Shown here piece after piece: positions 1-64,000 of a stretch of 64,000 nt of DNA. The DNA is taken from positions 17,277,513 to 17,341,512 of the forward strand of contig CM067315.1 in assembly GCA_034231615.1 (NCBI GenBank), read 5' to 3'. The notes beneath the pieces are model-generated. The model saw only the letters and a list, made by a program, of their open reading frames with translations. It had not been told where the DNA came from and did not search any database. Numbering within the stretch: position 1 is the first letter of the stretch; each line of letters begins with the position of its first letter. The stretch comes from Meghimatium bilineatum (lineage: Eukaryota; Mollusca; Gastropoda; Stylommatophora; Philomycidae). The position numbers and the translations under genes were made by a program.

Positions 1-1080
1 ACTCAATTTGTTAGATATGCCAGAATACAACGAGATCTGACATACTAAACAGCAAGAGACCTAATTTGTGTATAGTACGCCAGTTTTCTGACGTCTTAAG
101 CTGCAATACATCATATTAGTGTGTAAATTGCCAGGATATACAGAGTTCTGTTGTAGAAAGCTGCAGTACACTCAATTTGTGAGTAATATGCCAGAATACA
201 ACGAGTTCTAACGTAGTAAGCTACAATACACCAAATTCGTGTGCAGATTACAATTTCTGGTGTAGTAAGCTGCAATACAACGAAATCACGTGTAATAGAC
301 CAGAATACACTCAATTCTAGTGTAGAAAGCTTCAGTACAATGGGTTTGTGAGTAATATGCTAGAATAACAGAGTTTTGGCGTACTAAACTGCAATAGACC
401 CAATTCGTGCGTTATACGACAATTCTGAAGTAGTAAGCTACAATACACCAAATTCGTGTGTCCAGAATACAATTTCTTTTCTAGTAGGCTGCAGTACACT
501 CAATTTGTTAGATATGCCAGAATACAACGAGATCTGACATACTAAACAGCAAGAGACCTAATTTGTGTGTAGTACGCCAGTTTTCTGACGTCTTAAGCTG
601 CAATACATAATATTAGTGTGTAAATTGCCAGGATATACAGAGTTCTATTGTAGAAAGCTGCAGTACACTCAATTTGTGAGTAATATGCCAGAATACAACG
701 AGTTCTAACGTAGTAAGCTACAATACACCAAATTCGTGTGCAGATTACAATTTCTGGTGTAAAAAGCTGCAATACAAAGAAATCACGTGTAATAGGCCAG
801 AATACACTCAATTCTAGCGTAGAAAGCTTCAGTACAATGGGTTTGTGAGTAATATGCTAGAATAACAGAGTTTTGGCGTACTAAACTGCAATAGACCCAA
901 TTCGTGCGTTATACGACAATTCTGAAGTAGTAAGCTACAATACACCAAATTCGTGTGTCCAGAATACAATTTCAGTTCTAGTAAGCTGCAGTACACTCAA
1001 TTTGTTAGATATGCCAGAATACGAGATCTGACATACTAAACAGCAAGAGACCTAATTTGTGTGTAGTACGCCAGTTTTCT

Positions 1081-1737
1081 GACGTCTTAAGCTGCAATAC
1101 ATCAAATTAGTGTGTAAATTGCCAGGATATACAGAGTTCTGTTGTAGAAAGCTGCAGTACACTCAATTTGTGAGTAATATGCCAGAATACAACGAGTTCT
1201 AACGTAGTAAGCTACAATACACCAAATTCGTGTGCAGATTACAATTTCTGGTGTAGTAAGCTGCAATACAACGAAATCACGTGTAATAGACCAGAATACA
1301 CTCAATTCTAGCGTAGAAAGCTTCAGTACAATGGGTTTGTGAGTAATATGCTAGAATAACAGAGTTTTGGCGTACTAAACTGCAATAGACCCAATTCGTG
1401 CGTTATACGACAATTCTGAAGTAGTAAGCTACAATACACCAAATTCGTGTGTCCAGAATACAATTTCTGTTCTAGTAAGCTGCATTACACAATTTGTTAG
1501 TTATATGCCAGAATACAACGAGATCTGACATACTAAACAGCAAGAGACCTAATTTGTGTGTAGTACGCCAGTCTTCTGACGTCTTAAGCTGCAATACATC
1601 AAAGTAGTGTGTCCAGAATACAATTTCTGTTCTAGTAAGCTGCAGTACACTCAATTTGTTAGATATGCCAGAATACAACGAGATCTGACATACTAAACAG
1701 CAAGAGACCTAATTTGTGTGTAGTACGCCAGTTTTCT
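1081..1737. repeat. 657-bp unit with D-E-F/C insertion (class representative)
   Basis: The order is F-G-H-I-A-B-C-D'-E-(F/C)-D-E, that is 497 + 160 bp. The extra 160 bp is close to one trimer. Other members start at 3226, 8956, 11986 and 14517. All five carry the same D' and the same F/C junction, so they descend from one event and were spread by higher-order amplification rather than arising independently. Confidence 0.92.
1578..1628. repeat. F/C chimeric subunit (51 bp)
   Basis: The left part is F (GACGTCTTAAGCTGCAATAC) and the right part is C (CAAAGTAGTGTGTCCAGAATAC and on to the end). The switch lies in the shared stretch CAATACAtCAAA / CAATACAcCAAA. The same chimera is at 3723-3773, 9453-9503, 12483-12533 and 15014-15064. 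It records a misaligned exchange between two subunits that occupy equivalent trimer positions. Confidence 0.88.
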
Positions 1738-2234
1738 GACGTCTTAAGCTGCAATACATCATATTAGTGTGTAAATTGCCAGGATATACAGAGTTCTGTT
1801 GTAGAAAGCTGCAGTACACTCAATTTGTGAGTAATATGCCAGAATACAACGAGTTCAAACGTAGTAAGCTACAATACACCAAATTCGTGTGCAGATTACA
1901 ATTTCTGGTGTAGTAAGCTGCAATACAACGAAATCACGTGTAATAGACCAGAATACACTCAATTCTAGTGTAGAAAGCTTCAGTACAATGGGTTTGTGAG
2001 TAATATGCTAGAATAACAGAGTTTTGGCGTACTAAACTGCAATAGACCCAATTCGTGCGTTATACGACAATTCTGAAGTAGTAAGCTACAATACACCAAA
2101 GTAGTGTGTCCAGAATACAATTTCTGTTCTAGTAAGCTGCAGTACACTCAATTTGTTAGATATGCCAGAATACAACGAGATCTGACATACTAAACAGCAA
2201 GAGACCTAATTTGTGTGTAGTACGCCAGTTTTCT

Positions 2235-4379
2235 GACGTCTTAAGCTGCAATACATCATATTAGTGTGTAAATTGCCAGGATATACAGAGTTCTGTTGTA
2301 GAAAGCTGCAGTACACTCAATTTGTGAGTAATATGCCAGAATACAACGAGTTCTAACGTAGTAAGCTACAATACACCAAATTCGTGTGCAGATTACAATT
2401 TCTGGTGTAGTAAGCTGCAATACAACGAAATCACGTGTAATAGACCAGAATACACTCAATTCTAGTGTAGAAAGCTTCAGTACAATGGGTTTGTGAGTAA
2501 TATGCTAGAATAACAGAGTTTTGGCGTACTAAACTGCAATAGACCCAATTCGTGCGTTATACGACAATTCTGAAGTAGTAAGCTACAATACACCAAATTC
2601 GTGTGTCCAGAATACAATTTCTTTTCTAGTAGGCTGCAGTACACTCAATTTGTTAGATATGCCAGAATACAACGAGATCTGACATGCTAAACAGCAAAAG
2701 ACCTAATTTGTGTGTAGTACGCCAGTTTTCTGACGTCTTAAGCTGCAATACATAATATTAGTGTGTAAATTGCCAGGATATACAGAGTTCTATTGTAGAA
2801 AGCTGCAGTACACTCAATTTGTGAGTAATATGCCAGAATACAACGAGTTCTAACGTAGTAAGCTACAATACACCAAATTCGTGTGCAGATTACAATTTCT
2901 GGTGTAAAAAGCTGCAATACAAAGAAATTACGTGTAATAGGCCAGAATACACTCAATTCTAGCGTAGAAAGCTTCAGTACAATGGGTTTGTGAGTAATAT
3001 GCTAGAATAACAGAGTTTTGGCGTACTAAACTGCAATAGACCCAATTCGTGCGTTATACGACAATTCTGAAGTAGTAAGCTACAATACACCAAATTCGTG
3101 TGTCCAGAATACAATTTCAGTTCTAGTAAGCTGCAGTACACTCAATTTGTTAGATATGCCAGAATACGAGATCTGACATACTAAACAGCAAGAGACCTAA
3201 TTTGTGTGTAGTACGCCAGTTTTCTGACGTCTTAAGCTGCAATACATCAAATTAGTGTGTAAATTGCCAGGATATACAGAGTTCTGTTGTAGAAAGCTGC
3301 AGTACACTCAATTTGTGAGTAATATGCCAGAATACAACGAGTTCTAACGTAGTAAGCTACAATACACCAAATTCGTGTGCAGATTACAATTTCTGGTGTA
3401 GTAAGCTGCAATACAACGAAATCACGTGTAATAGACCAGAATACACTCAATTCTAGCGTAGAAAGCTTCAGTACAATGGGTTTGTGAGTAATATGCTAGA
3501 ATAACAGAGTTTTGGCGTATTAAACTGCAATAGACCCAATTCGTGCGTTATACGACAATTCTGAAGTAGTAAGCTACAATACACCAAATTCGTGTGTCCA
3601 GAATACAATTTCTGTTCTAGTAAGCTGCATTACACAATTTGTTAGTTATATGCCAGAATACAACGAGATCTGACATACTAAACAGCAAGAGACCTAATTT
3701 GTGTGTAGTACGCCAGTCTTCTGACGTCTTAAGCTGCAATACATCAAAGTAGTGTGTCCAGAATACAATTTCTGTTCTAGTAAGCTGCAGTACACTCAAT
3801 TTGTTAGATATGCCAGAATACAACGAGATCTGACATACTAAACAGCAAGAGACCTAATTTGTGTGTAGTACGCCAGTTTTCTGACGTCTTAAGCTGCAAT
3901 ACATCATATTAGTGTGTAAATTGCCAGGATATACAGAGTTCTGTTGTAGAAAGCTGCAGTACACTCAATTTGTGAGTAATATGCCAGAATACAACGAGTT
4001 CAAACGTAGTAAGCTACAATACACCAAATTCGTGTGCAGATTACAATTTCTGGTGTAGTAAGCTGCAATACAACGAAATCACGTGTAATAGACCAGAATA
4101 CACTCAATTCTAGTGTAGAAAGCTTCAGTACAATGGGTGTGTGAGTAATATGCTAGAATAACATAGTTTTGGCGTACTAAACTGCAATAGACCCAATTCG
4201 TGCGTTATACGACAATTCTGAAGTAGTAAGCTACAATACACCAAAGTAGTGTGTCTAGAATACAATTTCTGTTCTAGTAAGCTGCAGTACACTCAATTTG
4301 TTAGATATGCCAGAATACAACGAGATCTGACATACTAAACAGCAAGAGACCTAATTTGTGTGTAGTACGCCAGTTTTCT
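2235..4379. repeat. 2145-bp higher-order repeat, copy 2
   Basis: Units start at 2235 (497), 2732 (494), 3226 (657) and 3883 (497), matching copy 1 in length and variant order. Private changes include GACATGCTAA and CAGCAAAAG in E near 2691-2700, ATTACGTG near 2928, GTATTAAAC near 3518, GGGTGTGTG near 4136 and CATAG near 4152. The near-identity with copy 1 implies a recent tandem duplication of four units. Confidence 0.92.
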
Positions 4380-5870
4380 GACGTCTTAAGCTGCAATACA
4401 TAATATTAGTGTGTAAATTGCCAGGATATACAGAGTTCTATTGTAGAAAGCTGCAGTACACTCAATTTGTGAGTAATATGCCAGAATACAACGAGTTCTA
4501 ACGTAGTAAGCTACAATACACCAAATTCGTGTGCAGATTACAATTTCTGGTGTAAAAAGCTGCAATACAAAGAAATCACGTGTAATAGGCCAGAATACAC
4601 TCAATTCTAGCGTAGAAAGCTTCAGTACAATGGGTTTGTGAGTAATATGCTAGAATAACAGAGTTTTGGCGTACTAAACTGCAATAGACCCAATTCGTGC
4701 GTTATACGACAATTCTGAAGTAGTAAGCTACAATACACCAAATTCGTGTGTCCAGAATACAATTTCAGTTCTAGTAAGCTGCAGTACACTCAATTTGTTA
4801 GATATGCCAGAATACAACGAGATCTGACATACTAAACAGCAAGAGACCTAATTTGTGTGTAGTACGCCAGTTTTCTGACGTCTTAAGCTGCAATACATCA
4901 AATTAGTGTGTAAATTGCCAGGATATACAGAGTTCTGTTGTAGAAAGCTGCAGTACACTCAATTTGTGAGTAATATGCCAGAATACAACGAGTTCTAACG
5001 TAGTAAGCTACAATACACCAAATTCGTGTGCAGATTACAATTTCTGGTGTAGTAAGCTGTAAAACAACGAAATCACGTGTAATAGACCAGAATACACTCA
5101 ATTCTAGTGTAGAAAGCTTCAGTACAATGGGTTTGTGAGTAATATGCTAGAATAACAGAGTTTTGGCGTACTAAACTGCAATAGACCCAATTCGTGCGTT
5201 ATACGACAATTCTGAAGTAGTAAGCTACAATACACCAAAGTCGTGTGTCCAGAATACAATTTCTGTTCTAGTAAGCTGCAGTACACTCAATTTGTTAGAT
5301 ATGCCAGAATACAACGAGATCTGACATACTAAACAGCAAGAGACCTAATTTGTGTGTAGTACGCCAGTTTTCTGACGTCTTAAGCTGCAATACATCATAT
5401 TATTGTGTAAATTGCCAGGATATACAGAGTTCTGTTGTAGAAAGCTGCAGTACACTCAATTTGTGAGTAATATGCCAGAATACAACGAGTTCTAACGTAG
5501 TAAGCTACAATACACCAAATTCGTGTGCAGATTACAATTTCTGGTGTAAACAGCTGCAATACAAAGAAATCACGTGTAATAGGCCAGAATACACTCAATT
5601 CTAGCGTAGAAAGCTTCAGTACAATAGATTTGTGAGTAATATGCTAGAATAACAGAGTTTTGGCGTACTAAACTGCAATAGACCCAATTCGTGCGTTATA
5701 CGACAATTCTGAAGTAGTAAGCTACAATACACCACATTCGTGTGTCCAGAATACAATTTCAGTTCTAGTAAACTGCAGTACACTCAATTTGTTAGATATG
5801 CCAGAATACAACGAGATCTGACATACTAAACAGCAAGAGACCTAATTTGTGTGTAGTACGCCAGTTTTCT

Positions 5871-6586
5871 GACGTCTTAAGCTGCAATACATCATATTAT
5901 TGTGTAAATTGCCAGGATATACAGAGTTCTGTTGTAGAAAGCTGCAGTACACTCAATTTGTGAGTAATATGCCAGAATACAACGAGTTCTAACGTAGTAA
6001 GCTACAATACACCAAATTCGTGTGCAGATTACAATTTCTGGTGTAGTAAGCTGCAATACAACGAAATCACGTGTAATAGACCAGAATACACTCAATTCTA
6101 GCGTAGAAAGCTTCAGTACAATGGGTTTGTGAGTAATATGCTAGAATAACAGAGTTTTGGCGTACTAAACTGCAATAGACACAATTCGTGCGTAATACGA
6201 CAATTCTGAAGTAGTAAGATACAATACACCAAATTCGTGTGTCCAGAATACAATTTCTGGTGTAGTAAGCTGCAATACAACTAAATTACGTGTAATAGAC
6301 CAGAATACACTCAATTCTAGTGTAGAAAGCTTCAGTACAATGGGTTTGTGAGTAATATGCTAGAATAACAGAGTTTTGGCGTACTAAACTGCAATAGAAC
6401 CAATTCGTGCGTTATACGACAATTCTGAAGTAGTAAGCTACAATACACCAAAGTCGTGTGTCCAGAATACAATTTCTGTTCTAGTAAGCTGCAGTACACT
6501 CAATTTGTTAGATATGCCAGAATACAACGAGATCTGACATACTAAACAGCAAGAGACCTAATTTGTGTGTAGTACGCCAGTTTTCT
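5871..6586. repeat. 716-bp unit with out-of-register C-to-I junction (class representative)
   Basis: The order is F-G-H-I-A-B-C-I-A-B-C-D-E, or 497 + 219 bp. C ends at 6258 and is followed directly by I instead of D. C and H are almost the same sequence and H is normally followed by I, so pairing C with H during exchange gives exactly this product. The 17657 and 20248 units are the same; the 24211 unit is a 714-bp version lacking 2 bp near 24650. Confidence 0.9.
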
Positions 6587-7467
6587 GACTTCTTAAGCTG
6601 CAATACATCATATTAGTGTGTAAATTGCCAGGATATACAGAGTTCTGTTGTAGAAAGCTGCAGTACACTCAATTTGTGAGTAATATGCCAGAATACAACG
6701 AGTTCTAACGTAGCAAGCTACAATACACCAAATTCGTGTGCAGATTACAATTTCTGGTGTAGTAAGCTGCAATACAACGAAATCACGTGTAATAGACCAG
6801 AATACACTCAATTCTAGCGTAGAAAGCTTCAGTACAATGGGTTTGTGAGTAATATGCTAGAATAACAGAGTTTTGGCGTACTAAACTGCAATAGACCCAA
6901 TTCGTGCGTAATACGACAATTCTGAAGTAGTAAGCTACAATACACCAAATTCGTGTGTCCAGAATACAATATCTGGTGTAGTAAGCTGAAATACAACGAA
7001 ATCACGTGTAATAGACCAGAATACACTCAATTCTAGTGTAGAAAGCTTCAGTACAATGGGTTTGTGAGTAATATGCCAGAATACAACGAGTTCAAACGTA
7101 GTAAGCTACAATACACCAAATTCGTGTGCAGAATACAATTTCTGGTGTAGTAAGCTGCAATACAACGAAATCACGTGTAATAGACCAGAATACACTCAAT
7201 TCTAGTGTAGAAAGCTTCAGTACAATGGGTTTGTAATATGCTAGAATAACATAGTTTTGGCGTACTAAACTGCAATAGACCCAATTCGTGCGTTATACGA
7301 CAATTCTGAAGTAGTAAGCTACAATACACCAAAGTAGTGTGTCCAGAATACAATTTCTGTTCTAGTAAGCTGCAGTACACTCAATTTGTTAGATATGCCA
7401 GAATACAACGAGATCTGACATACTAAACAGCAAGAGACCTAATTTGTGTGTAGTACGCCAGTTTTCT
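6587..7467. repeat. 881-bp unit, 885-bp class with 4-bp deletion
   Basis: The order is F-G-H-I-A-B-C-I'-(A/G)-H-I-A-B-C-D-E, as in the 885-bp units, but the second A reads GGGTTTGTAATATG near 7229, having lost 4 bp. The same deletion is in the 18373 (near 19015) and 21849 (near 22495) units. The shared lesion shows that these three derive from one ancestor. G has GTAGCAAGC near the G/H joint in all three. Confidence 0.89.
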
Positions 7468-7964
7468 GACGTCTTAAGCTGCAATACATCATATTAGTGT
7501 GTAAATTGCCAGGATATACAGAGTTCTGTTGTAGAAAGCTGCAGTACACTCAATTTGTGAGTAATATGCCAGAATACAACGAGTTCTAACGTAGTAAGCT
7601 ACAATACACCAAATTCGTGTGCAGATTACAATTTCTGGTGTAGTAAGCTGCAATACAACGAAATCACGTGTAATAGACCAGAATACACTCAATTCTAGCG
7701 TAGAATGCTTCAGTACAATGGGTTTGTGAGTAATATGCTAGAATAACAGAGTTTTGGCGTACTAAACTGCAATAGACCCAATTCGTGCGTTATACGACAA
7801 TTCTGAAGTAGTAAGCTACAATACACCAAAGTCGTGTGTCCAGAATACAATTTCTGTTCTAGTAGGCTGCAGTACACTCAATTTGTTAGATATGCCAGAA
7901 TACAACGAGATCTGACATACTAAACAGCAAGAGACCTAATTTGTGTGTAGTACGCCAGTTTTCT

Positions 7965-10900
7965 GACGTCTTAAGCTGCAATACATCAAATTAGTGTATA
8001 AATTGCCAGGATATACAGAGTTCTGTTGTAGAAAGCTGCAGTACACTCAATTTGTGAGTAATATGCCAGAATACAACGAGTTCTAACGTAGTAAGCTACA
8101 ATACACCAAATTCGTGTGCAGATTACAATTTCTGGTGTAGTAAGCTGCAATACAACGAAATCACGTGTAATAGACCAGAATACACTCAATTCTAGTGTAG
8201 AAAGCTTCAGTACAATGGGTTTGTGAGTAATATGCTAGAATAACAGAGTTTTGGCGTACTAAACTGCAATAGACCCAATTCGTGCGTTATACGACAATTC
8301 TGAAGTAGTAAGCTACAATACACCAAATTCGTGTGTCCAGAATACAATTTCTTTTCTAGTAGGCTGCAGTACACTCAATTTGTTAGATATGCCAGAATAC
8401 AACGAGATCTGACATACTAAACAGCAAGAGACCTAATTTGTGTGTAGTACGCCAGTTTTCTGACGTCTTAAGCTGCAATACATAATATTAGTGTGTAAAT
8501 TGCCAGGATATACAGAGTTCTATTGTAGAAAGCTGCAGTACACTCAATTTGTGAGTAATATGCCAGAATACAACGAGTTCTAACGTAGTAAGCTACAATA
8601 CACCAAATTCGTGTGCAGATTACAATTTCTGGTGTAAAAAGCTGAAATACAAAGAAATCACGTGTAATAGGCCAGAATACACTCAATTCTAGCGTAGAAA
8701 GCTTCAGTACAATGGGTTTGTGAGTAATATGCTAGAATAACAGAGTTTTGGCGTACTAAACTGCAATAGACCCAATTCGTGCGTTATACGACAATTCTGA
8801 AGTAGTAAGCTACAATACACCAAATTCGTGTGTCCAGAATACAATTTCAGTTCTAGTAAGCTGCAGTACACTCAATTTGTTAGATATGCCAGAATACGAG
8901 ATCTGACATACTAAACAGCAAGAGACCTAATTTGTGTGTAGTACGCCAGTTTTCTGACGTCTTAAGCTGCAATACATCAAATTAGTGTGTAAATTGCCAG
9001 GATATACAGAGTTCTGTTGTAGAAAGCTGCAGTACACTCAATTTGTGAGTAATATGCCAGAATACAACGAGTTCTAACGTAGTAAGCTACAATACACCAA
9101 ATTCGTGTGCAGATTACAATTTCTGGTGTAGTAAGCTGCAATACAACGAAATCACGTGTAATAGACCAGAATACACTCAATTCTAGCGTAGAAAGCTTCA
9201 GTACAATGGGTTTGTGAGTAATATGCTAGAATAACAGAGTTTTGGCGTACTAAACTGCAATAGACCCAATTCGTGCGTTATACGACAATTCTGAAGTAGT
9301 AAGCTACAATACACCAAATTCATGTGTCCAGAATACAATTTCTGTTCTAGTCAGCTGCATTACACAATTTGTTAGTTATATGCCAGAATACAACGAGATC
9401 TGACATACTAAACAGCAAGAGACCTAATTTGTGTGTAGTACGCCAGTCTTCTGACGTCTTAAGCTGCAATACATCAAAGTAGTGTGTCCAGAATACAATT
9501 TCTGTTCTAGTAAGCTGCAGTACACTCAATTTGTTAGATATGCCAGAATACAACGAGATCTGACATACTAAACAGCAAGAGACCTAATTTGTGTGTAGTA
9601 CGCCAGTTTTCTGACGTCTTAAGCTGCAATACATCATATTAGTGTGTAAATTGCCAGGATATACAGAGTTCTGTTGTAGAAAGCTGCAGTACACTCAATT
9701 TGTGAGTAATATGCCAGAATACAACGAGTTCAAACGTAGTAAGCTACAATACACCAAATTCGTGTGCAGATTACAATTTCTGGTGTAGTAAGCTGCAATA
9801 CAACGAAATCACGTGTAATAGACCAGAATACACTCAATTCTAGTGTAGAAAGCTTCAGTACAATGGGTTTGTGAGTAATATGCTAGAATAACAGAGTTTT
9901 GGCGTACTAAACTGCAATAGACCCAATTCGTGCGTTATACGACAATTCTGAAGTAGTAAGCTACAATACACCAAAGTAGTGTGTCCAGAATACAATTTCT
10001 GTTCTAGTAAGCTGCAGTACACTCAATTTGTTAGATATGCCAGAATACAACGAGATCTGACATACTAAACAGCAAGAGACCTAATTTGTGTGTAGTACGC
10101 CAGTTTTCTGACGTCTTAAGCTGCAATACATCATATTAGTGTGTAAATTGCCAGGATATACAGAGTTCTGTTGTAGAAAGCTGCAGTACACTCAATTTGT
10201 GAGTAATATGCCAGAATACAACGAGTTCTAACGTAGTAAGCTACAATACACCAAATTCGTGTGCAGATTACAATTTCTGGTGTAGTAAGCTGCAATACAA
10301 CGAAATCACGTGTAATAGACCAGAATACACTCAATTCTAGTGTAGAAAGCTTCAGTACAATGGGTTTGTGAGTAATATGCTAGAATAACATAGTTTTGGC
10401 GTACTAAACTGCAATAGACCCAATTCGTGCGTAATACGACAATTCTGAAGTAGTAAGCTACAATACACCAAATTCGTGTGTCCAGAATACAATATCTGGT
10501 GTAGTAAGCTGAAATACAACGAAATCACGTGTAATAGACCAGAATACACTCAATTCTAGTGTAGAAAGCTTCAGTACAATGGGTTTGTGAGTAATATGCC
10601 AGAATACAACGAGTTCAAACGTAGTAAGCTACAATACACCAAATTCGTGTGCAGAATACAATTTCTGGTGTAGTAAGCTGCAATACAACGAAATCACGCG
10701 TAATAGACCAGAATACACTCAATTCTAGTGTAGAAAGCTTCAGTACAATGGGTTTGTGAGTAATATGCTAGAATAACATAGTTTTGGCGTACTAAACTGC
10801 AATAGACCCAATTCGTGCGTTATACGACAATTCTGAAGTAGTAAGCTACAATACACCAAAGTAGTGTGTCCAGAATACAATTTCTGTTCTAGTAAGCTGC

Positions 10901-23723: not shown

Positions 23724-23805
23724 GACGTCTTAAGCTGCAATACATCAAATTAGTGTATAAATTGCCAGGATATACAGAGTTCTGTTGTAGAAAGCTGCAG
23801 TACAC

Positions 23806-38300: not shown

Positions 38301-38721
38301 TGCAGTACACTCAATTTGTAATATGCCAGAATACAACGAGTTCTAACGTAGTAAGCTACAATACACCAAATTCGTGCGCAGATTACAATTTCTGGTGTAG
38401 TAAGCTGTAAAACAACGAAATCACGTGTAATAGACCAGAATACACTCAATTCTAGTGTAGAAAGCTTCAGTACAATGGGTTTGTGAGTAATATGCTAGAA
38501 TAACAGAGTTTTGGCGTACTAAACTGCAATAGACCCAATTCGTGCGTTATACGACAATTCTGAAGTAGTAAGCTACAATACACCAAAGTCGTGTGTCCAG
38601 AATACAATTTCTGTTCTAGTAAGCTGCAGTACACTCAATTTGTTAGATATGCCAGAATACAACGAGGTCTGACATACTAAACAGCAAGAGACCTAATTTG
38701 TGTGTAGTACGCCAGTTTTCT
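35363..38721. repeat. Mixed unit stretch 497-498-492-882-497-493
   Basis: Unit starts: 35363, 35860 (498), 36358 (492), 36850 (882), 37732 and 38229 (493). The 35860-37731 part is copy 2 of the 498-497-882 cassette; its middle unit lost 5 bp in H (GCTACACCAAATTC near 36490). The 38229 unit has a 4-bp deletion in G (TTTGTAATATG near 38318) and the CGTGCGCAG / CTGTAAAAC markers seen at 42587. CGAGGTCT near 38664 abolishes the AGATCT of D. Confidence 0.89.
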
Positions 38722-44700: not shown

Positions 44701-44959
44701 TGCTTCAGTACAATGGGTTTGTGAGTAATATGCTAGAATAACAGAGTTTTGGCGTACTAAACTGCAATAGACCCAATTCGTGCGTTATACGACAATTCTG
44801 AAGTAGTAAGCTACAATACACCAAATTCGTGTGTCCAGAATACAATTTCTGTTCTAGTAGGCTGCAGTACACTCAATTTGTTAGATATGCCAGAATACAA
44901 CGAGATCTGACATACTAAACAGCAAGAGACCTAATTTGTGTGTAGTACGCCAGTTTTCT
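38722..44959. repeat. Macro higher-order repeat, copy 1 (6238 bp)
   Basis: Unit starts: 38722, 39219, 39716, 40213 (498), 40711, 41208 (882), 42090, 42587, 43084 (494), 43578 (885) and 44463. It holds two CTCAATATGTG units (39219, 40213), one GCCAGCCAG unit (near 40697), the GTGCGCAG unit (42587) and the TATACCCTATTCG unit (near 43389). The portion 39219-44462 (5244 bp) is matched unit for unit at 49819-55062. Confidence 0.91.
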
Positions 44960-52300: not shown

Positions 52301-55062
52301 ACAACGAGTTCAAACGTAGTAAGCTACAATACACCAAATTCGTGTGCAGAATACAATTTCTGGTGTAGTAAGCTGCAATACAACGAAATCACGTGTAATA
52401 GACCAGAATACACTCAATTCTAGTGTAGAAAGCTTCAGTACAATGGGTTTGTGAGTAATATGCTAGAATAACATAGTTTTGGCGTATTAAACTGCAATAG
52501 ACCCAATTCGTGCGTTATACGACAATTCTGAAGTAGTAAGCTACAATACACCAAAGTAGTGTGTCCAGAATACAATTTCTGTTCTAGTAAGCTGCAGTAC
52601 ACTCAATTTGTTAGATATGCCAGAATACAACGAGATCTGACATACTAAACAGCAAGAGACCTAATTTGTGTGTAGTACGCCAGTTTTCTGACGTCTTAAG
52701 CTGCAATACATCATATTAGTGTGTAAATTGCCAGGATATACAGAGTTCTGTTGTAGAAAGCTGCAGTACACTCAATTTGTGAGTAATATGCCAGAATACA
52801 ACGAGTTCTAACGTAGTAAGCTACAATACACCAAATTCGTGTGCAGATTACAATTTCTGGTGTAAACAGCTGCAATACAAAGAAATCACGTGTAATAGAC
52901 CAGAATACACTCAATTCTAGCGTAGAAAGCTTCAGTACAATAGATTTGTGAGTAATATGCTAGAATAACAGAGTTTTGGCGTACTAAACTGCAATAGACC
53001 CAATTCGTGCGTTATACGACAATTCTGAAGTAGTAAGCTACAATACACCAAATTCGTGTGTCCAGAATACAATTTCAGTTCTAGTAAGCTGCAGTACACT
53101 CAATTTGTTAGATATGCCAGAATACAACGAGATCTGACATACTAAACAGCAAGAGACCTAATTTGTGTGTAGTACGCCAGTTTTCTGACGTCTTAAGCTG
53201 CAATACATCAAATTAGTGTGTAAATTGCCAGGATATACAGAGTTCTGTTGTAGAAAGCTGCAGTACACTCAATTTGTGAGTAATATGCCAGAATACAACG
53301 AGTTCTAACGTAGTAAGCTACAATACACCAAATTCGTGCGCAGATTACAATTTCTGGTGTAGTAAGCTGTAAAACAACGAAATCACGTGTAATAGACCAG
53401 AATACACTCAATTCTAGTGTAGAAAGCTTCAGTACAATGGGTTTGTGAGTAATATGCTAGAATAACAGAGTTTTGGCGTACTAAACTGCAATAGACCCAA
53501 TTCGTGCGTTATACGACAATTCTGAAGTAGTAAGCTACAATACACCAAAGTCGTGTGTCCAGAATACAATTTCTGTTCTAGTAAGCTGCAGTACACTCAA
53601 TTTGTTAGATATGCCAGAATACAACGAGATCTGACATACTAAACAGCAAGAGACCTAATTTGTGTGTAGTACGCCAGTTTTCTGACGTCTTAAGCTGCAA
53701 TACATCATATTATTGTGTAAATTGCCAGGATATACAGAGTTCTGTTGTAGAAAGCTGCAGTACACTCAATTTGTGAGTAATATGCCAGAATACAACGAGT
53801 TCTAACGTAGTAAGCTACAATACACCAAATTCGTGTGCAGATTACAATTTCTGGTGTAGTAAGCTGCAATACAACGAAATCACGTGTAATAGACCAGAAT
53901 ACACTCAATTCTAGCGTAGAAAGCTTCAGTACAATGGGTTTGTGAGTAATATGCTAGAATAACAGAGTTTTGGCGTACTAAACTGCAATATACCCTATTC
54001 GTGTGTTATACGACAATTCTGAAGTAGTAAGCTACAATACACCAAATTCGTGTGTCCAGAATACAATTTCTGTTCTAGTAAGCTGCATTACACAATTTGT
54101 TAGTTATATGCCAGAATACGAGATCTGACATACTAAACAGCAAGAGACCTAATTTGTGTGTAGTACGCCAGTCTTCTGATGTCTTAAGTTGCAATACATC
54201 AAATTAGTGTGTAAATTCCCAAGATATACAGAGTTCTGTTGTAGAAAGCTGCAGTACACTCAATTTGTGAGTAATATGCCAGAATACAACGAGTTCAAAC
54301 GTAGTAAGCTACAATACACCAAATTCGTGTGCAGAATACAATTTCTGGTGTAGTAAGCTGCAATACAACGAAATCACGTGTAATAGACCAGAAAACACTC
54401 AATTCTAGTGTAGAAAGCTTCAGTACAATGGGTTTGTGAGTAATATGCTAGAATAACATAGTTTTGGCGTACTAAACTGCAATAGACCCAATTCGTGCGT
54501 AATACGACAATTCTGAAGTAGTAAGCTACAATACACCAAAGTAGTGTGTCCAGAATACAATATCTGGTGTAGTAAGCTGAAATACAACGAAATCACGTGT
54601 AATAGACCAGAATACACTCAATTCTAGTGTAGAAAGCTTCAGTACAATGGGTTTCTGAGTAATATGCCAGAATACAACGAGTTCAAACGTAGTAAGCTAC
54701 AATACACCAAATTCGTGTGCAGATTACAATTTCTGGTGTAGTAAGCTGCAATACAACGAAATCACGTGTAATAGACCAGAATACACTCAATTCTAGCGTA
54801 GAATGCTTCAGTACAATGGGTTTGTGAGTAATATGCTAGAATAACAGAGTTTTGGCGTACTAAACTGCAATAGACCCAATTCGTGCGTTATACGACAATT
54901 CTGAAGTAGTAAGCTACAATACACCAAATTCGTGTGTCCAGAATACAATTTCTGTTCTAGTAAGCTGCAGTACACAATTTGTTAGTTATATGCCAGAATA
55001 CAACGAGATCTGACATACTAAACAGCAAGAGACCTAATTTGTGTGTAGTACGCCAGTTTTCT
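49322..55062. repeat. Macro higher-order repeat, copy 3 (5741 bp)
   Basis: Unit starts: 49322, 49819, 50316, 50813 (498), 51311, 51808 (882), 52690, 53187, 53684 (494) and 54178 (885). It is matched by copy 1 at a shift of 10,600 bp from 49819 onward, including GTATTAAAC near 52493 (partner 41893). The exception is a patch inside the 54178 unit. Confidence 0.91.
54290..54545. repeat. Patch of foreign variants inside an 885-bp unit (conversion-like)
   Basis: The partner unit at 43578 has CGAGTTCT, GTAGCAAGC, GCAGATTAC, GAATACACTC, AACAGAG and CAAATTCGTG here. This stretch instead has CGAGTTCA, GTAGTAAGC, GCAGAATAC, GAAAACACTC, AACATAG and CAAAGTAGTG, with overall unit length unchanged at 885 bp. 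The same combination is found in the right half of the 24925 unit (about 25205-25460) and mostly in the 56049 and 58682 units. Both flanks match the 43578 unit. Nonreciprocal transfer is the simplest reading; a double exchange would look the same. Confidence 0.72.
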
Positions 55063-57695
55063 GACGTCTTAAGCTGCAATACATCAAATTAGTGTATAAA
55101 TTGCCAGGATATACAGAGTTCTGTTGTAGAAAGCTGCAGTACACTCAATTTGTGAGTAATATGCCAGAATACAACGAGTTCTAACGTAGTAAGCTACAAT
55201 ACACCAAATTCGTGTGCAGATTACAATTTCTGGTGTAGTAAGCTGCAATACAACGAAATCACGTGTAATAGACCAGAATACACTCAATTCTAGCGTAGAA
55301 TGCTTCAGTACAATGGGTTTGTGAGTAATATGCTAGAATAACAGAGTTTTGGCGTACTAAACTGCAATAGACCCAATTCGTGCGTTATACGACAATTCTG
55401 AAGTAATAAGCTACAATACACCAAAGTCGTGTGTCCAGAATACAATTTCTGTTCTAGTAGGCTGCAGTACACTCAATTTGTTAGATATGCCAGAATACAA
55501 AGAGATCTGACATACTAAACAGCAAGAGACCTAATTTGTGTGTAGTACGCCAGTTTTCTGACGTCTTAAGCTGCAATACATCAAATTAGTGTATAAATTG
55601 CCAGGATATACAGAGTTCTGTTGTAGAAAGCTGCAGTACACTCAATTTGTGAGTAATATGCCAGAATACAACGTAGTAAGCTACAATACACCAAATTCGT
55701 GTGTCCAGAATACAATTTCTGGTGTAGTAAGCTGCAATACAACTAAATCACGTGTAATAGACCAGAATACACTCAATTCTAGTGTAGAAAGCTTCAGTAC
55801 AATGGGTTTGTGAGTAATATGCTAGAATAACAGAGTTTTGGCGTACTAAACTGCAATAGACCCAATTCGTGCGTTATACGACAATTCTGAAGTAGTAAGC
55901 TACAATACACCAAAGTCGTGTGTCCAGAATACAATTTCTGTTCTAGTAAGCTGCAGTACACTCAATTTGTTAGATATGCCAGAATACAACGAGATCTGAC
56001 ATACTAAACAGCAAGAGACCTAATTTGTGTGTAGTACGCCAGTTTTCTGACGTCTTAAGCTGCAATACATCATATTAGTGTGTAAATTGCCAGGATATAC
56101 AGAGTTCTGTTGTAGAAAGCTGCAGTACACTAAATTTGTGAGTAATATGCCAGAATACGAGTTCTAACGTAGTAAGCTACAATAAACCAAATTCGTGTGC
56201 AGAATACAATTTCTGGTGTAGTAAGCTGAAATACAACGAAATCACGTGTAATAGACCAGAATACACTCAATTCTAGTGTAGAAAGCTTCAGTACAATGGG
56301 TTTGTGAGTAATATGCCAGAATACAACGAGTTCAAACGTAGTAAGCTACAATACACCAAATTCGTGTGCAGAATACAATTTCTGGTGTAGTAAGCTGCAA
56401 TACAACGAAATCACGTGTAATAGACCAGAAAACACTCAATTCTAGTGTAGAAAGCTTCAGTACAATGGGTTTGTGAGTAATATGCTAGAATAACATAGTT
56501 TTGGCGTACTAAACTGCAATAGACCCAATTCGTGCGTAATACGACAATTCTGAAGTAGTAAGCTACAATACACCAAATTCGTGTGTCCAGAATACAATTT
56601 CTGTTCTAGTAAGCTGCAGTACACTCAATTTGTTAGATATGCCAGAATACAACGAGATCTGACATACTAAACAGCAAGAGACCTAATTTGTGTGTAGTAC
56701 GCCAGTTTTCTGACGTCTTAAGCTGCAATACATCATATTAGTGTGTAAATTGCCAGGATATACAGAGTTCTGTTGTAGAAAGCTGCAGTACACTCAATTT
56801 GTGAGTAATATGCCAGAATACAACGAGTTCTAACGTAGTAAGCTACAATACACCAAATTCGTGTGCAGATTACAATTTCTGGTGTAGTAAGCTGCAATAC
56901 AACGAAATCACGTGTAATAGACCAGAATACACTCAATTCTAGTGTAGAAAGCTTCAGTACAATGGGTGTGTGAGTAATATGCTAGAATAACAGAGTTTTG
57001 GCGTACTAAACTGCAATAGACCCAATTCGTGCGTTATACGACAATTCTGAAGTAGTAAGCTACAATACACCAAATTCGTGTGTCCAGAATACAATTTCAG
57101 TTCTAGTAAGCTGCAGTACACTCAATTTGTTAGATATGCCAGAATACAACGAGATCTGACATACTAAACAGCAAGAGACCTAATTTGTGTGTAGTACGCC
57201 AGTTTTCTGACGTCTTAAGCTGCAATACATCAAATTAGTGTATAAATTGCCAGGATATACAGAGTTCTGTTGTAGAAAGCTGCAGTACACTCAATTTGTG
57301 AGTAATATGCCAGAATACAACGTAGTAAGCTACAATACACCAAATTCGTGTGCAGATTACAATTTCTGGTGTAGTAAGCTGCAATACAACGAAATCACGT
57401 GTAATAGACCAGAATACACTCAATTCTAGCGTAGAATGCTTCAGTACAATGGGTTTGTGAGTAATATGCTAGAATAACAGAGTTTTGGCGTACTAAACTG
57501 CAATAGACCCAATTCGTGCGTTATACGACAATTCTGAAGTAGTAAGCTACAATACACCAAATTCGTGTGTCCAGAATACAATTTCTGTTCTAGTAAGCTG
57601 CAGTACACAATTTGTTAGTTATATGCCAGAATACAACGAGATCTGACATACTAAACAGCAAGAGACCTAATTTGTGTGTAGTACGCCAGTTTTCT
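55063..57695. repeat. 2633-bp higher-order repeat, copy 1
   Basis: Unit starts: 55063 (497), 55560 (489), 56049 (663), 56712 (497) and 57209 (487). Markers are GAAGTAATAAGC near 55402, CAAAGAGATCT near 55498 and the 10-bp G/H deletion near 55670 and 57320. In the 489-bp units H also has the C-type TGTCCAGAATAC, adding 2 bp. Confidence 0.92.
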
Positions 57696-60328
57696 GACGT
57701 CTTAAGCTGCAATACATCAAATTAGTGTATAAATTGCCAGGATATACAGAGTTCTGTTGTAGAAAGCTGCAGTACACTCAATTTGTGAGTAATATGCCAG
57801 AATACAACGAGTTCTAACGTAGTAAGCTACAATACACCAAATTCGTGTGCAGATTACAATTTCTGGTGTAGTAAGCTGCAATACAACGAAATCACGTGTA
57901 ATAGACCAGAATACACTCAATTCTAGCGTAGAATGCTTCAGTACAATGGGTTTGTGAGTAATATGCTAGAATAACAGAGTTTTGGCGTACTAAACTGCAA
58001 TAGACCCAATTCGTGCGTTATACGACAATTCTGAAGTAATAAGCTACAATACACCAAAGTCGTGTGTCCAGAATACAATTTCTGTTCTAGTAGGCTGCAG
58101 TACACTCAATTTGTTAGATATGCCAGAATACAAAGAGATCTGACATACTAAACAGCAAGAGACCTAATTTGTGTGTAGTACGCCAGTTTTCTGACGTCTT
58201 AAGCTGCAATACATCAAATTAGTGTATAAATTGCCAGGATATACAGAGTTCTGTTGTAGAAAGCTGCAGTACACTCAATTTGTGAGTAATATGCCAGAAT
58301 ACAACGTAGTAAGCTACAATACACCAAATTCGTGTGTCCAGAATACAATTTCTGGTGTAGTAAGCTGCAATACAACTAAATCACGTGTAATAGACCAGAA
58401 TACACTCAATTCTAGTGTAGAAAGCTTCAGTACAATGGGTTTGTGAGTAATATGCTAGAATAACAGAGTTTTGGCGTACTAAACTGCAATAGACCCAATT
58501 CGTGCGTTATACGACAATTCTGAAGTAGTAAGCTACAATACACCAAAGTCGTGTGTCCAGAATACAATTTCTGTTCTAGTAAGCTGCAGTACACTCAATT
58601 TGTTAGATATGCCAGAATACAACGAGATCTGACATACTAAACAGCAAGAGACCTAATTTGTGTGTAGTACGCCAGTTTTCTGACGTCTTAAGCTGCAATA
58701 CATCATATTAGTGTGTAAATTGCCAGGATATACAGAGTTCTGTTGTAGAAAGCTGCAGTACACTAAATTTGTGAGTAATATGCCAGAATACGAGTTCTAA
58801 CGTAGTAAGCTACAATAAACCAAATTCGTGTGCAGAATACAATTTCTGGTGTAGTAAGCTGAAATACAACGAAATCACGTGTAATAGACCAGAATACACT
58901 CAATTCTAGTGTAGAAAGCTTCAGTACAATGGGTTTGTGAGTAATATGCCAGAATACAACGAGTTCAAACGTAGTAAGCTACAATACACCAAATTCGTGT
59001 GCAGAATACAATTTCTGGTGTAGTAAGCTGCAATACAACGAAATCACGTGTAATAGACCAGAAAACACTCAATTCTAGTGTAGAAAGCTTCAGTACAATG
59101 GGTTTGTGAGTAATATGCTAGAATAACATAGTTTTGGCGTACTAAACTGCAATAGACCCAATTCGTGCGTAATACGACAATTCTGAAGTAGTAAGCTACA
59201 ATACACCAAATTCGTGTGTCCAGAATACAATTTCTGTTCTAGTAAGCTGCAGTACACTCAATTTGTTAGATATGCCAGAATACAACGAGATCTGACATAC
59301 TAAACAGCAAGAGACCTAATTTGTGTGTAGTACGCCAGTTTTCTGACGTCTTAAGCTGCAATACATCATATTAGTGTGTAAATTGCCAGGATATACAGAG
59401 TTCTGTTGTAGAAAGCTGCAGTACACTCAATTTGTGAGTAATATGCCAGAATACAACGAGTTCTAACGTAGTAAGCTACAATACACCAAATTCGTGTGCA
59501 GATTACAATTTCTGGTGTAGTAAGCTGCAATACAACGAAATCACGTGTAATAGACCAGAATACACTCAATTCTAGTGTAGAAAGCTTCAGTACAATGGGT
59601 GTGTGAGTAATATGCTAGAATAACAGAGTTTTGGCGTACTAAACTGCAATAGACCCAATTCGTGCGTTATACGACAATTCTGAAGTAGTAAGCTACAATA
59701 CACCAAATTCGTGTGTCCAGAATACAATTTCAGTTCTAGTAAGCTGCAGTACACTCAATTTGTTAGATATGCCAGAATACAACGAGATCTGACATACTAA
59801 ACAGCAAGAGACCTAATTTGTGTGTAGTACGCCAGTTTTCTGACGTCTTAAGCTGCAATACATCAAATTAGTGTATAAATTGCCAGGATATACAGAGTTC
59901 TGTTGTAGAAAGCTGCAGTACACTCAATTTGTGAGTAATATGCCAGAATACAACGTAGTAAGCTACAATACACCAAATTCGTGTGCAGATTACAATTTCT
60001 GGTGTAGTAAGCTGCAATACAACGAAATCACGTGTAATAGACCAGAATACACTCAATTCTAGCGTAGAATGCTTCAGTACAATGGGTTTGTGAGTAATAT
60101 GCTAGAATAACAGAGTTTTGGCGTACTAAACTGCAATAGACCCAATTCGTGCGTTATACGACAATTCTGAAGTAGTAAGCTACAATACACCAAATTCGTG
60201 TGTCCAGAATACAATTTCTGTTCTAGTAAGCTGCAGTACACAATTTGTTAGTTATATGCCAGAATACAACGAGATCTGACATACTAAACAGCAAGAGACC
60301 TAATTTGTGTGTAGTACGCCAGTTTTCT
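57696..60328. repeat. 2633-bp higher-order repeat, copy 2
   Basis: Unit starts: 57696 (497), 58193 (489), 58682 (663), 59345 (497) and 59842 (487). GAAGTAATAAGC (near 58035) and CAAAGAGATCT (near 58131) are shared with copy 1 and absent from copy 3. I saw no clear difference from copy 1 on reading, so this is among the most recent duplications in the window. Confidence 0.92.
58222..58446 (+). other. Plus-strand open frame created by a 10-bp deletion, judged non-coding
   Basis: A 74-codon frame appears in the 489-bp units (also 55589-55813, 60855-61079 and 62892-63116), because a 10-bp deletion at the G/H joint removes a stop and shifts frame. A related 63-codon frame occurs at 23753, 57238 and 59871. 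Its first 30 residues show the same 10-residue periodicity as the minus-strand frame. There is no sign of coding selection; the frame is a consequence of the deletion. Confidence 0.8.
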
Positions 60329-62365
60329 GACGTCTTAAGCTGCAATACATCAAATTAGTGTATAAATTGCCAGGATATACAGAGTTCTGTTGTAGAAAGC
60401 TGCAGTACACTCAATTTGTGAGTAATATGCCAGAATACAACGAGTTCTAACGTAGTAAGCTACAATACACCAAATTCGTGTGCAGATTACAATTTCTGGT
60501 GTAGTAAGCTGCAATACAACGAAATCACGTGTAATAGACCAGAATACACTCAATTCTAGCGTAGAATGCTTCAGTACAATGGGTTTGTGAGTAATATGCT
60601 AGAATAACAGAGTTTTGGCGTACTAAACTGCAATAGACCCAATTCGTGCGTTATACGACAATTCTGAAGTAGTAAGCTACAATACACCAAAGTCATGTGT
60701 CCAGAATACAATTTCTGTTCTAGTAGGCTGCAGTACACTCAATTTGTTAGATATGCCAGAATACAACGAGATCTGACATACTAAACAGCAAGAGACCTAA
60801 TTTGTGTGTAGTACGCCAGTTTTCTGACGTCTTAAGCTGCAATACATCAAATTAGTGTATAAATTGCCAGGATATACAGAGTTCTGTTGTAGAAAGCTGC
60901 AGTACACTCAATTTGTGAGTAATATGCCAGAATACAACGTAGTAAGCTACAATACACCAAATTCGTGTGTCCAGAATACAATTTCTGGTGTAGTAAGCTG
61001 CAATACAACTAAATCACGTGTAATAGACCAGAATACACTCAATTCTAGTGTAGAAAGCTTCAGTACAATGGGTTTGTGAGTAATATGCTAGAATAACAGA
61101 GTTTTGGCGTACTAAACTGCAATAGACCCAATTCGTGCGTTATACGACAATTCTGAAGTAGTAAGCTACAATACACCAAAGTCGTGTGTCCAGAATACAA
61201 TTTCTGTTCTAGTAAGCTGCAGTACACTCAATTTGTTAGATATGCCAGAATACAACGAGATCTGACATACTAAACAGCAAGAGACCTAATTTGTGTGTAG
61301 TACGCCAGTTTTCTGACGTCTTAAGCTGCAATACATCATATTAGTGTGTAAATTGCCAGGATATACAGAGTTCTGTTGTAGAAAGCTGCAGTACACTAAA
61401 TTTGTGAGTAATATGCCAGAATACGAGTTCTAACGTAGTAAGCTACAATAAACCAAATTCGTGTGCAGAATACAATTTCTGGTGTAGTAAGCTGAAATAC
61501 AACGAAATCACGTGTAATAGACCAGAATACACTCAATTCTAGTGTAGAAAGCTTCAGTACAATGGGTTTGTGAGTAATATGCCAGAATACAACGAGTTCA
61601 AACGTAGTAAGCTACAATACACCAAATTCGTGTGCAGAATACAATTTCTGGTGTAGTAAGCTGCAATACAACGAAATCACGTGTAATAGACCAGAAAACA
61701 CTCAATTCTAGTGTAGAAAGCTTCAGTACAATGGGTTTGTGAGTAATATGCTAGAATAACAGAGTTTTGGCGTACTAAACTGCAATAGACCCAATTCGTG
61801 CGTAATACGACAATTCTGAAGTAGTAAGCTACAATACACCAAATTCGTGTGTCCAGAATACAATATCTGGTGTAGTAAGCTGAAATACAACGAAATCACG
61901 TGTAATAGACCAGAATACACTCAATTCTAGTGTAGAAAGCTTCAGTACAATGGGTTTGTGAGTAATATGCCAGAATACAACGAGTTCAAACGTAGTAAGC
62001 TACAATACACCAAATTCGTGTGCAGATTACAATTTCTGGTGTAGTAAGCTGCAATACAACGAAATCACGTGTAATAGACCAGAATACACTCAATTCTAGC
62101 GTAGAATGCTTCAGTACAATGGGTTTGTGAGTAATATGCTAGAATAACAGAGTTTTGGCGTACTAAACTGCAATAGACCCAATTCGTGCGTTATACGACA
62201 ATTCTGAAGTAGTAAGCTACAATACACCAAATTCGTGTGTCCAGAATACAATTTCTGTTCTAGTAAGCTGCAGTACACAATTTGTTAGTTATATGCCAGA
62301 ATACAACGAGATCTGACATACTAAACAGCAAGAGACCTAATTTGTGTGTAGTACGCCAGTTTTCT
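60329..62365. repeat. 2633-bp repeat, rearranged copy (2037 bp) with a 1051-bp unit
   Basis: Unit starts: 60329 (497), 60826 (489) and 61315 (1051). The 1051-bp unit is a 663-type front joined to an 885-type back: F-G-H-I'-(A/G)-H-I-A-B-C-I'-(A/G)-H-I-A-B-C-D'-E. The joint lies in or near the first A, about 61705-61765, where GAAAACAC (663-type) is followed by AACAGAG rather than AACATAG. The 497- and 487-bp units that should follow are missing. CAAAGTCATGTG near 60690 is private. Confidence 0.87.
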
Positions 62366-64000
62366 GACGTCTTAAGCTGCAATACATCAAATTAGTGTAT
62401 AAATTGCCAGGATATACAGAGTTCTGTTGTAGAAAGCTGCAGTACACTCAATTTGTGAGTAATATGCCAGAATACAACGAGTTCTAACGTAGTAAGCTAC
62501 AATACACCAAATTCGTGTGCAGATTACAATTTCTGGTGTAGTAAGCTGCAATACAACGAAATCACGTGTAATAGACCAGAATACACTCAATTCTAGCGTA
62601 GAATGCTTCAGTACAATGGGTTTGTGAGTAATATGCTAGAATAACAGAGTTTTGGCGTACTAAACTGCAATAGACCCAATTCGTGCGTTATACGACAATT
62701 CTGAAGTAGTAAGCTACAATACACCAAAGTCGTGTGTCCAGAATACAATTTCTGTTCTAGTAGGCTGCAGTACACTCAATTTGTTAGATATGCCAGAATA
62801 CAACGAGATCTGACATACTAAACAGCAAGAGACCTAATTTGTGTGTAGTACGCCAGTTTTCTGACGTCTTAAGCTGCAATACATCAAATTAGTGTATAAA
62901 TTGCCAGGATATACAGAGTTCTGTTGTAGAAAGCTGCAGTACACTCAATTTGTGAGTAATATGCCAGAATACAACGTAGTAAGCTACAATACACCAAATT
63001 CGTGTGTCCAGAATACAATTTCTGGTGTAGTAAGCTGCAATACAACTAAATCACGTGTAATAGACCAGAATACACTCAATTCTAGTGTAGAAAGCTTCAG
63101 TACAATGGGTTTGTGAGTAATATGCTAGAATAACAGAGTTTTGGCGTACTAAACTGCAATAGACCCAATTCGTGCGTTATACGACAATTCTGAAGTAGTA
63201 AGCTACAATACATTAAAGTCGTGTGTCCAGAATACAATTTCTGTTCTAGTAAGCTGCAGTACACTCAATTTGTTAGATATGCCAGAATACAACGAGATCT
63301 GACATACTAAACAGCAAGAGACCTAATTTGTGTGTAGTACGCCAGTTTTCTGACGTCTTAAGCTGCAATACATCATATTAGTGTGTAAATTGCCAGGATA
63401 TACAGAGTTCTGTTGTAGAAAGCTGCAGTACACTAAATTTGTGAGTAATATGCCAGAATACGAGTTCTAACGTAGTAAGCTACAATAAACCAAATTCGTG
63501 TGCAGAATACAATTTCTGGTGTAGTAAGCTGAAATACAACGAAATCACGTGTAATAGACCAGAATACACTCAATTCTAGTGTAGAAAGCTTCAGTACAAT
63601 GGGTTTGTGAGTAATATGCCAGAATACAACGAGTTCAAACGTAGTAAGCTACAATACACCAAATTCGTGTGCAGAATACAATTTCTGGTGTAGTAAGCTG
63701 CAATACAACGAAATCACGTGTAATAGACCAGAAAACACTCAATTCTAGTGTAGAAAGCTTCAGTACAATGGGTTTGTGAGTAATATGCTAGAATAACATA
63801 GTTTTGGCGTACTAAACTGCAATAGACCCAATTCGTGCGTAATACGACAATTCTGAAGTAGTAAGCTACAATACACCAAATTCGTGTGTCCAGAATACAA
63901 TTTCTGTTCTAGTAAGCTGCAGTACACTCAATTTGTTAGATATGCCAGAATACAACGAGATCTGACATACTAAACAGCAAGAGACCTAATTTGTGTGTAG
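62366..64000. repeat. 2633-bp repeat, partial copy running off the window
   Basis: Unit starts: 62366 (497), 62863 (489) and 63352 (663-type, cut by the window end inside E). The order is the same as the first three units of copies 1 and 2. CATTAAAGTCG near 63211 is private to this copy. The array clearly continues beyond 64000. Confidence 0.9.

Follow-up and report, generated by a model that had tools for sequence, protein, structure and literature searches.

The 64,000-bp window, by which we mean the whole stretch of DNA that was analysed, is very probably a eukaryotic, nested higher-order satellite array whose layers were built by repeated rounds of copying; this confidence covers the nature of the array and its mode of growth, and leaves its chromosomal place aside. 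A whole-window parse into nine subunit types assigned 63,960 of the 64,000 bases (1-63960) to 1,161 subunits, with a mean divergence of 1.85% from their type (18.6% in the worst case) and a 40-base tail at the window end outside the parse. No foreign insert was found by this parse across the 64 kb. A derivation of the array from a decayed coding sequence or transposon is extremely improbable, given that the 64-kb window contains no ORF of at least 80 aa and no match to a tRNA or an Rfam family; a coding origin is further opposed by the unit length of 497 bp, which is not divisible by three. The window thus presents itself as a long, tandem, non-coding and homogenised array, with diverged subunits set within near-identical higher-order units. 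The coordinates of its features are collected in Table 1.

Table 1. Features of the array in window coordinates; higher-order repeats (HORs) are mapped at an identity of at least 98% at the given lag.
Feature	Position	Strand	Remarks
Satellite array, single, uninterrupted, one orientation	1..64000	+	nine-type subunit parse
First complete canonical 497-bp unit, subunits 1-9	374..870	+	one of 93
Trimer 5-6-7, 60+60+49 = 169 bp	583..751	+	in first canonical unit
Subunit 8, 60 bp	752..811	+	consensus is the clearest two-half subunit, 18/30 at lag 30
Cassette 1-2-3-4-2-3-4-5-6-7-8-9, 657 bp, 5/2 chimera	1365..2021	+	5 complete in window
Cassette 1-2-8-9, 219 bp, 2>8 junction	6155..6373	+	4 in window
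Cassette 1-2-8-9-7-8-9, 384-388 bp, 2>8 junction and 9/6 chimera	6871..7254	+	19 in window
Cassette 1-2-3-4-5-6-(7/2)-8-9, 487-489 bp, 7/2 chimera, 10-bp deletion	55347..55835	+	5 in window
Cassette 123456789789, 663 bp, 789 doubled via 9>7 junction	55836..56498	+	5 in window
2145-bp HOR, tandem	1..5324	+	at least 98% at lag 2145
11,786-bp repeat	3681..20667	+	at least 98% at lag 11786
1879-bp HOR, tandem	28027..33016	+	length equals three 497-bp cassettes plus one of 388
5741-bp HOR	38378-46401 and 46903-55700		at least 98% at lag 5741
10,600-bp repeat	38298..55709	+	4,825 bp exactly identical; overlaps 5741-bp and 4362-bp repeats
4362-bp repeat	44460-51973		at least 98% at lag 4362
2633-bp HOR, tandem	54628..61932	+	3,353 bp exactly identical

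The layers are visible in the autocorrelation of the window, which peaks at 497 (0.654), 169 (0.416), 60 (0.386), 30 (0.374) and 49 bp (0.342) against a chance level of 0.269, with further peaks at 994, 388, 885, 328 and 109 bp. Periods of 49, 58, 60, 169, 217-219, 388 and 497 bp were recovered by TRF. Signal below 497 bp had been predicted by the earlier note, and both methods find it.

At the smallest well-resolved scale, the nine subunit consensuses are 49-60 bp long and share 64-95% pairwise identity, as expected from the nine diverged subunits proposed earlier. The canonical unit 123456789 measures 497 bp and consists of three trios in long-long-short order, 169, 168 and 160 bp in length, the one exception to these thrice-run lengths being the shortened subunit 2. 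The trimer level, previously only apparent, is borne out by these lengths and by the mean identity between subunits at offset 3 (0.811, permutation p 0.019; 0.752, 0.744 and 0.766 at offsets 1, 2 and 4). The proposed two-half motif of about 30 bp gains support from the majority 60-mer but is faint in single subunits. In a hand-written majority 60-mer, the halves match at 18 of 30 positions, a value equalled at any lag from 10 to 44 by 17 of 20,000 shuffles; an alignment-computed version, differing at two positions, gives 0.567 (17/30; 2 of 4000 within-class shuffles). In the six of the nine subunits that were checked, the half match is 38-60% at the best lag within 26-34. An origin of the subunits from two 30-bp halves is supported, but the trace is faint.

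In contrast to this divergence between subunits, 23 of 24 sampled 497-bp units show 97.6-99.2% identity to their consensus, and the full set of 47 distinct canonical units shows a median difference of 12 edits (maximum 33). This divergence gradient, together with exact repeats of up to 4,825 bp, upholds the reading of an old amplification at the small scale followed by recent homogenisation at the large scale. The 497-bp unit is confirmed as canonical, accounting for 93 of the 131 complete cassettes; the array is nevertheless no uniform run of it, since the other 38 differ in subunit content. Among the 131, 70 distinct sequences were counted. Similarity between canonical cassettes is nearly unrelated to their distance (Mantel r 0.036; 326/2000), and neighbour-to-neighbour spreading therefore fails to describe them.

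The unit variants trace to four classes of junction between related subunits, all in subunit register. The 9/6 crossover lies inside a 16-bp identity tract in 22 of 24 copies measured, the 7/2 crossover inside one of 31 bp in 4 of 5 copies, and the 5/2 crossover inside one of 4 bp in all 5 copies; the pairs 2/7, 2/5 and 6/9 rank within the top six or seven of 36 by similarity, ties included. For the 2>8 junction, the commonest form (14 of 28 copies) has one base unlike either parent, while another form (4 of 28) did not resolve; the measurements cover these 14 and 4 copies. The chimeric junctions reveal which subunit pairs recombine, and inside which identity tracts.

At the multi-kilobase scale, 13 lags were tried. 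The HORs of 1879, 2145, 2633 and about 5.7 kb (5741 bp) listed in the earlier note were all recovered, and repeats of 10600, 11786 and 4362 bp were found beyond that list; lags of 1382, 1876, 2373, 3368 and 8457 gave no repeat at 98% identity or above in the window. The exact blocks of 4,825 and 3,353 bp could be products of mis-assembly, and some of the HOR structure might stem from near-identical units that were falsely duplicated or collapsed. We consider this improbable, as neither the variety of cassette sequences nor the adjoining of several different HORs is expected from a simple assembler loop.

Taking the array as a product of repeated copying, we infer growth by successive rounds of duplication, divergence and amplification. 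An A/T-phased motif of about 30 bp would have doubled to 60 bp, and some copies would have been shortened to about 50 bp. The next layer would have been the trio of long, long and short subunits, about 166 bp in all, and three diverged trios would have become fixed as the 497-bp nonamer. Recombination between related subunits, either as unequal exchange in register or as break-induced replication out of register, could have produced the variants of 4, 7 and 12 subunits, and blocks of mixed cassettes may subsequently have been amplified into HORs of 1.9-11.8 kb. The layers, the divergence gradient and the junctions in register are observed; the order of these events and the recombination pathway are the inferred part of this scheme. 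Several ages of satellite growth can be read within one 64-kb stretch, and, with its informative chimeric junctions, this offers a clean setting in which to compare models of how HORs arise, where unequal exchange is set against break-induced replication. The array likewise lends itself to asking whether selection or inheritance accounts for the A/T phasing.

Such phasing is evident at the scale of the helical turn. A/T (WW) steps recur every 9.94 bp (497/50), with a single phase across the nine subunit consensuses. Of 248 WW harmonics, number 50 is the strongest, and its power was reached at any harmonic by none of 1000 dinucleotide shuffles; 2 of 3000 column shuffles preserving subunit kinship reached the line. 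Neither AA nor TA steps alone give a 9.94-bp line (995 and 322 of 1000 shuffles, respectively, reach it). Identity at lag 20 exceeds the expectation from A/T composition (14/4000), and that at lag 10 is not significant (639/4000). The phase may help nucleosome wrapping. An unlikely extension is that the layering was selected as helical-turn quanta fixing the rotational phase of nucleosomes, with 30, 49/60, 169 and 497 bp corresponding, at 9.94 bp per turn, to about 3, 5/6, 17 and 50 turns. The common WW phase would agree with this, as would the near-whole turns of the canonical (50.0), 388-bp (39.03), 219-bp (22.03) and 487-bp (48.99) cassettes; however, lengths of 494 (12 copies), 663 (5) and 384 bp (3), and a few others, miss whole turns, the phase drifts along the window, and independent length changes are too few for a test. 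Moreover, when the 57 substitution events were relocated, the phase was at least equal in 1646 of 4000 trials for W and in 1168 for WW; with gaps alone the WW power is 70.8, and the substitutions have lowered it to 45.0. Selection on the A/T phase is thus unsupported by the relocation test, which gives no sign that substitutions maintain the phase, so that inheritance suffices. It is similarly doubtful that the hierarchy grew and was filtered for a continuous rotational face on centromeric nucleosomes, with a phase that predates the nonamer and may go back to a 10-bp repeat.

A WW periodicity of about 10 bp, common in but not exclusive to centromeric satellites, is reported for many of them in the available text of PMC12321929, and for rice CentO and other centromeric satellites through citations in parts of PMC5844345 and PMC12321929. 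In the CentO-type satellites nucleosome phasing has been measured, according to these parts, whereas here the rhythm is known from sequence alone. The array is most likely (peri)centromeric. A lesser but substantial possibility, which concerns place only, is that the same satellite lies elsewhere (in a subtelomeric region, on a B chromosome or sex chromosome, or within interstitial heterochromatin) and that any chromatin role is incidental: nothing within the 64 kb marks a centromere, but a long, HOR-rich, insert-free and WW-phased array resembles the centromeric satellites described in portions of PMC12321929 and PMC11917152.

Full-text literature searches found no satellite with a 497-bp unit and nothing relevant for fragments of the window sequence. 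Three window patterns had no match in viral contigs, nor a 667-base window query in plasmids; genome contigs gave four single 18-mer matches in bacterial MAGs, below the approximately 7 expected by chance by our own arithmetic. One candidate considered for the family was the Rana S1 satellite, which has a unit of about 494 bp. Alpha-satellite HOR arrays consist of 171-bp monomers in fixed order, with near-identical higher-order units and chimeric monomers. The window resembles them in its diverged monomers in fixed order, near-identical HOR units and chimeras, but differs in sequence and in that its 166-bp level is a trio of 50/60-bp subunits and not a 171-bp monomer. In the Drosophila ananassae subgroup, the Fam1 complex satellites are peri/centromeric, with HORs, long arrays and variants of 109 to 411 bp (PMC11917152, in part); agreement of the 109-bp variant with the 109-bp period in the window is a lead only, and Fam1 arrays are described there as sporadically interrupted by transposons, whereas the window is uninterrupted. 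The centromeric D. simulans simcent1, or 500-bp repeat, shares a unit near 500 bp (PMC5844345, in part), but identity with it was rejected, as none of the 15 simcent1/simcent2 centromere-enriched 10-mers in Table 4 of that paper occurs exactly in the window.

The closest parallel in organisation is the mouse major (gamma) satellite, MaSat, for which excerpts of PMC3218096 describe halves of 28/30 bp assembled from parts of 7-11 bp, units of 58/60 bp, a tetramer of 234 bp and an HOR of 2154 bp. Like the window, it combines halves, 58/60-bp units, a diverged heteromer and a kb-scale HOR in A/T-rich sequence. Compared by description, the array does not belong to the MaSat family, having a 497-bp nonamer with a trio level and short units of about 50 bp where MaSat has a 234-bp heterotetramer. 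The novelty of the hierarchy implied earlier finds no support, the same layering being published for MaSat in those excerpts; the correspondence with a described satellite of this hierarchy is one of kind and not of sequence. The array is a new example of an already described layered kind of satellite, clear and well preserved; should its family prove unreported, what is gained is a sequence and no new kind of system.

A dyad or cruciform reading, likely by eye, was rejected as a main feature: perfect dyads of at least 5 bp are not enriched (7 versus 10.3 expected), and folding z-scores are weak, ranging from +1.8 to -1.8 for the nine subunits and reaching, for one 497-bp unit, -1.4 on the plus strand (6/100 shuffles) and -2.4 on the minus strand (4/100). 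Predicted static curvature, computed with wedge values (phased A-tract control, 2.99), is not raised (1.058 versus a shuffle mean of 1.083; 178 of 200 shuffles reach it). Counted over subunit copies whose length equals that of the consensus, changes of the C>T or G>A type affect 4 of 28 CpG versus 20 of 159 other C/G positions, with no excess of the CpG decay that would be a sign of methylation. The CENP-B box core is TTCGNNNNANNCGGG; none of the 200 listed of 251 matches shows it intact, each having 2 mismatches. The 251 CENP-B-like matches, versus 32 in shuffles, represent one or two motifs tandemly repeated.

One tandem array fills the window, with an autocorrelation of 0.654 at lag 497, against 0.269 by chance, and further clear peaks at lags 30, 49, 60, 109, 169, 328 and 388; TRF run on the window agrees with these periods. 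The 497-bp period, and shorter ones beneath it, had been expected in an earlier note and are borne out by the peaks at 497, 169, 60, 49 and 30. A 497-bp consensus was built from 24 units, 23 of them in register, and cut into nine subunits, with which the window was decomposed into 1,161 subunits (mean divergence 1.85%, worst 18.6%); throughout the decomposed bases 1-63960 there is no foreign stretch and no change of orientation. Just 1,453 different 12-mers occur in the window, and ORFs of at least 80 aa, tRNAs and Rfam families are all absent from it. By its anatomy the array is an ordinary eukaryotic higher-order repeat (HOR) satellite. The mouse major satellite, according to its description, has the same architecture, with 28+30-bp halves that in turn consist of 7-11 bp pieces, units of 58/60 bp, and above these a heterotetramer and HORs (PMC3218096); the numbers differ, and presumably the sequence too, but the kind does not. 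Relatives were sought in viral contigs, plasmids, prokaryote genomes and open papers and none relevant was found, which carries little weight for a eukaryotic satellite.

Within the 497-bp unit, subunits 1-9 have consensus lengths of 49, 51, 59, 50, 60, 60, 49, 60 and 59 bp. The trios 5-6-7 (169 bp) and 8-9-1 (168 bp) run long-long-short, as does 2-3-4 (160 bp), but with subunit 2, which is closest to subunit 7 (94%), short in the expected long slot. The trio consensuses are 71-81% identical, and the apparent trimer level proposed earlier is upheld by a mean identity between subunits of 0.811 at offset 3, where other offsets give 0.744-0.766 (p 0.019 by permutation). The 30-bp halves match at 18/30 positions in a majority 60-mer written by hand, a score that 17 of 20,000 shuffles reach when every lag between 10 and 44 is allowed; a computed majority 60-mer gives 17/30, and the signal is weaker in single subunits (38-60% at the best lag between 26 and 34; six of the nine checked). 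Of the 36 pairs of consensuses, subunits 3 and 6 form the closest (95% identity), which suggests later exchange or conversion between trios.

Among 131 complete cassettes (complete runs of subunits), 93 are the canonical 123456789 and 19 are 1289789; 123423456789, 123456-2-89 and 123456789789 occur five times each and 1289 four times. Small indels account for further lengths, 494 and 498 bp among them. Variants in subunit content arise from the only four irregular kinds of neighbour pair out of 13, all of which keep the subunit register. Three of these junctions carry chimeric subunits whose parents (2/7, 94%; 2/5, 86%; 6/9, 84%) are among the six or seven closest of the 36 pairs, ties included. 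At 2>8 the switch sits at the subunit border, so that pairing of either 2/7 or 3/8 may be responsible; two of its forms, with 14 and 4 of the 28 copies, were measured, and the first of these, the commonest, has one base unlike either parent. One base is likewise unexplained by a 7/2 switch in the fifth 6>2 copy. The junctions look as expected if related subunits undergo homologous exchange or template switching, and are compatible with both unequal crossing-over and break-induced replication; the latter is preferred for satellites in what a recent review says of them (PMC12321929). The 7/2 chimera at 6>2 also lacks, as read by eye, 10 bp between AACG direct repeats, a deletion of about one helical turn.

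Features of the array (positions in the window; repeats at >=98% identity at their lag)
Feature	Position	Copies	Detail
2145-bp HOR	1-5324		
11,786-bp repeat	3681-20667		
1879-bp HOR	28027-33016		
10,600-bp repeat	38298-55709		
5741-bp HOR	38378-46401, 46903-55700		
4362-bp repeat	44460-51973		
2633-bp HOR	54628-61932		
9>7 junction		24	9/6 chimera; switch within 16-bp identical tract (22 copies measured)
6>2 junction	55616-55716, 58249, 60882, 62919, 23780	5	7/2 chimera; switch within 31-bp tract in 4 copies
4>2 junction		5	5/2 chimera; 4-bp tract
2>8 junction		28	7 sequences
Subunit 3, copy	474-532		
Subunit 6, copy	643-702		
Unparsed tail	final 40 bases		left by subunit decomposition

Thirteen lags were searched in the window at >=98% identity, and each of the HORs named in the earlier note (1879, 2145, 2633 and about 5.7 kb, here 5741) was recovered. 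Lag 497 itself gives many short runs, and lags 1382, 1876, 2373, 3368 and 8457 give no such repeat in the window. Exact repeats extend up to 4,825 bp; it is possible that the largest repeats contain assembly artefacts. The cassettes have 70 distinct sequences, of which 47 are canonical, and between these 47 the median difference is 12 edits (maximum 33). Among canonical cassettes distance has no effect on similarity (Mantel r 0.036; 326/2000 permutations), which fits copying by blocks rather than by neighbours.

The top Fourier line of A/T-only dinucleotide (WW) steps has a period of 9.94 bp, exactly 1/50 of the 497-bp unit (its 50th harmonic). The power of this line is 45.0, and 1000 dinucleotide shuffles never exceed 21.9. 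The line is also present in AA/TT jointly (15.3) and in G/C-only steps (16.9), neither reached in 1000 shuffles, and is lacking in AA alone (reached by 995/1000) and TA alone (322/1000). The nine subunit consensuses share a phase within ~3 bp, and the A/T fraction goes from 0.88 to 0.38 over one turn. Under a stricter null, in which alignment columns were permuted and subunit kinship retained, the rhythm was matched at any harmonic in 2/3000 (WW) and 24/3000 (W, A/T) permutations, and near 10 bp in none of 3000. The best period is 9.90-9.95 in all 32 blocks of 2 kb, with a phase that drifts along the window; power per kilobase has a median of 81.7 and drops to 2.7 in one of 64.

When 57 substitution events were relocated at random in 4000 trials, the phase was at least as strong as observed in 1646 (W) and 1168 (WW), and the actual substitutions brought WW power down from 70.8 to 45.0; there is no sign that the phase is protected. 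Descent from a phased ancestor explains the rhythm. In the 60-mer, identity at lag 20 exceeds what its own A/T pattern gives (14/4000) and identity at lag 10 does not (639/4000), a pattern that hints, weakly, at a root of 10 bp. Predicted static curvature is not raised.

Since a WW periodicity of ~10 bp is described for many centromeric satellites (PMC12321929, PMC5844345), a (peri)centromeric place would be our best guess for the array. The 10-mer AATAACATAG occurs 29 times in the window, and a single variant of subunit 9 accounts for at least 23 of these. It equals the unit of the D. melanogaster Prod satellite, a match that is probably a coincidence within an A/T-phased repeat.
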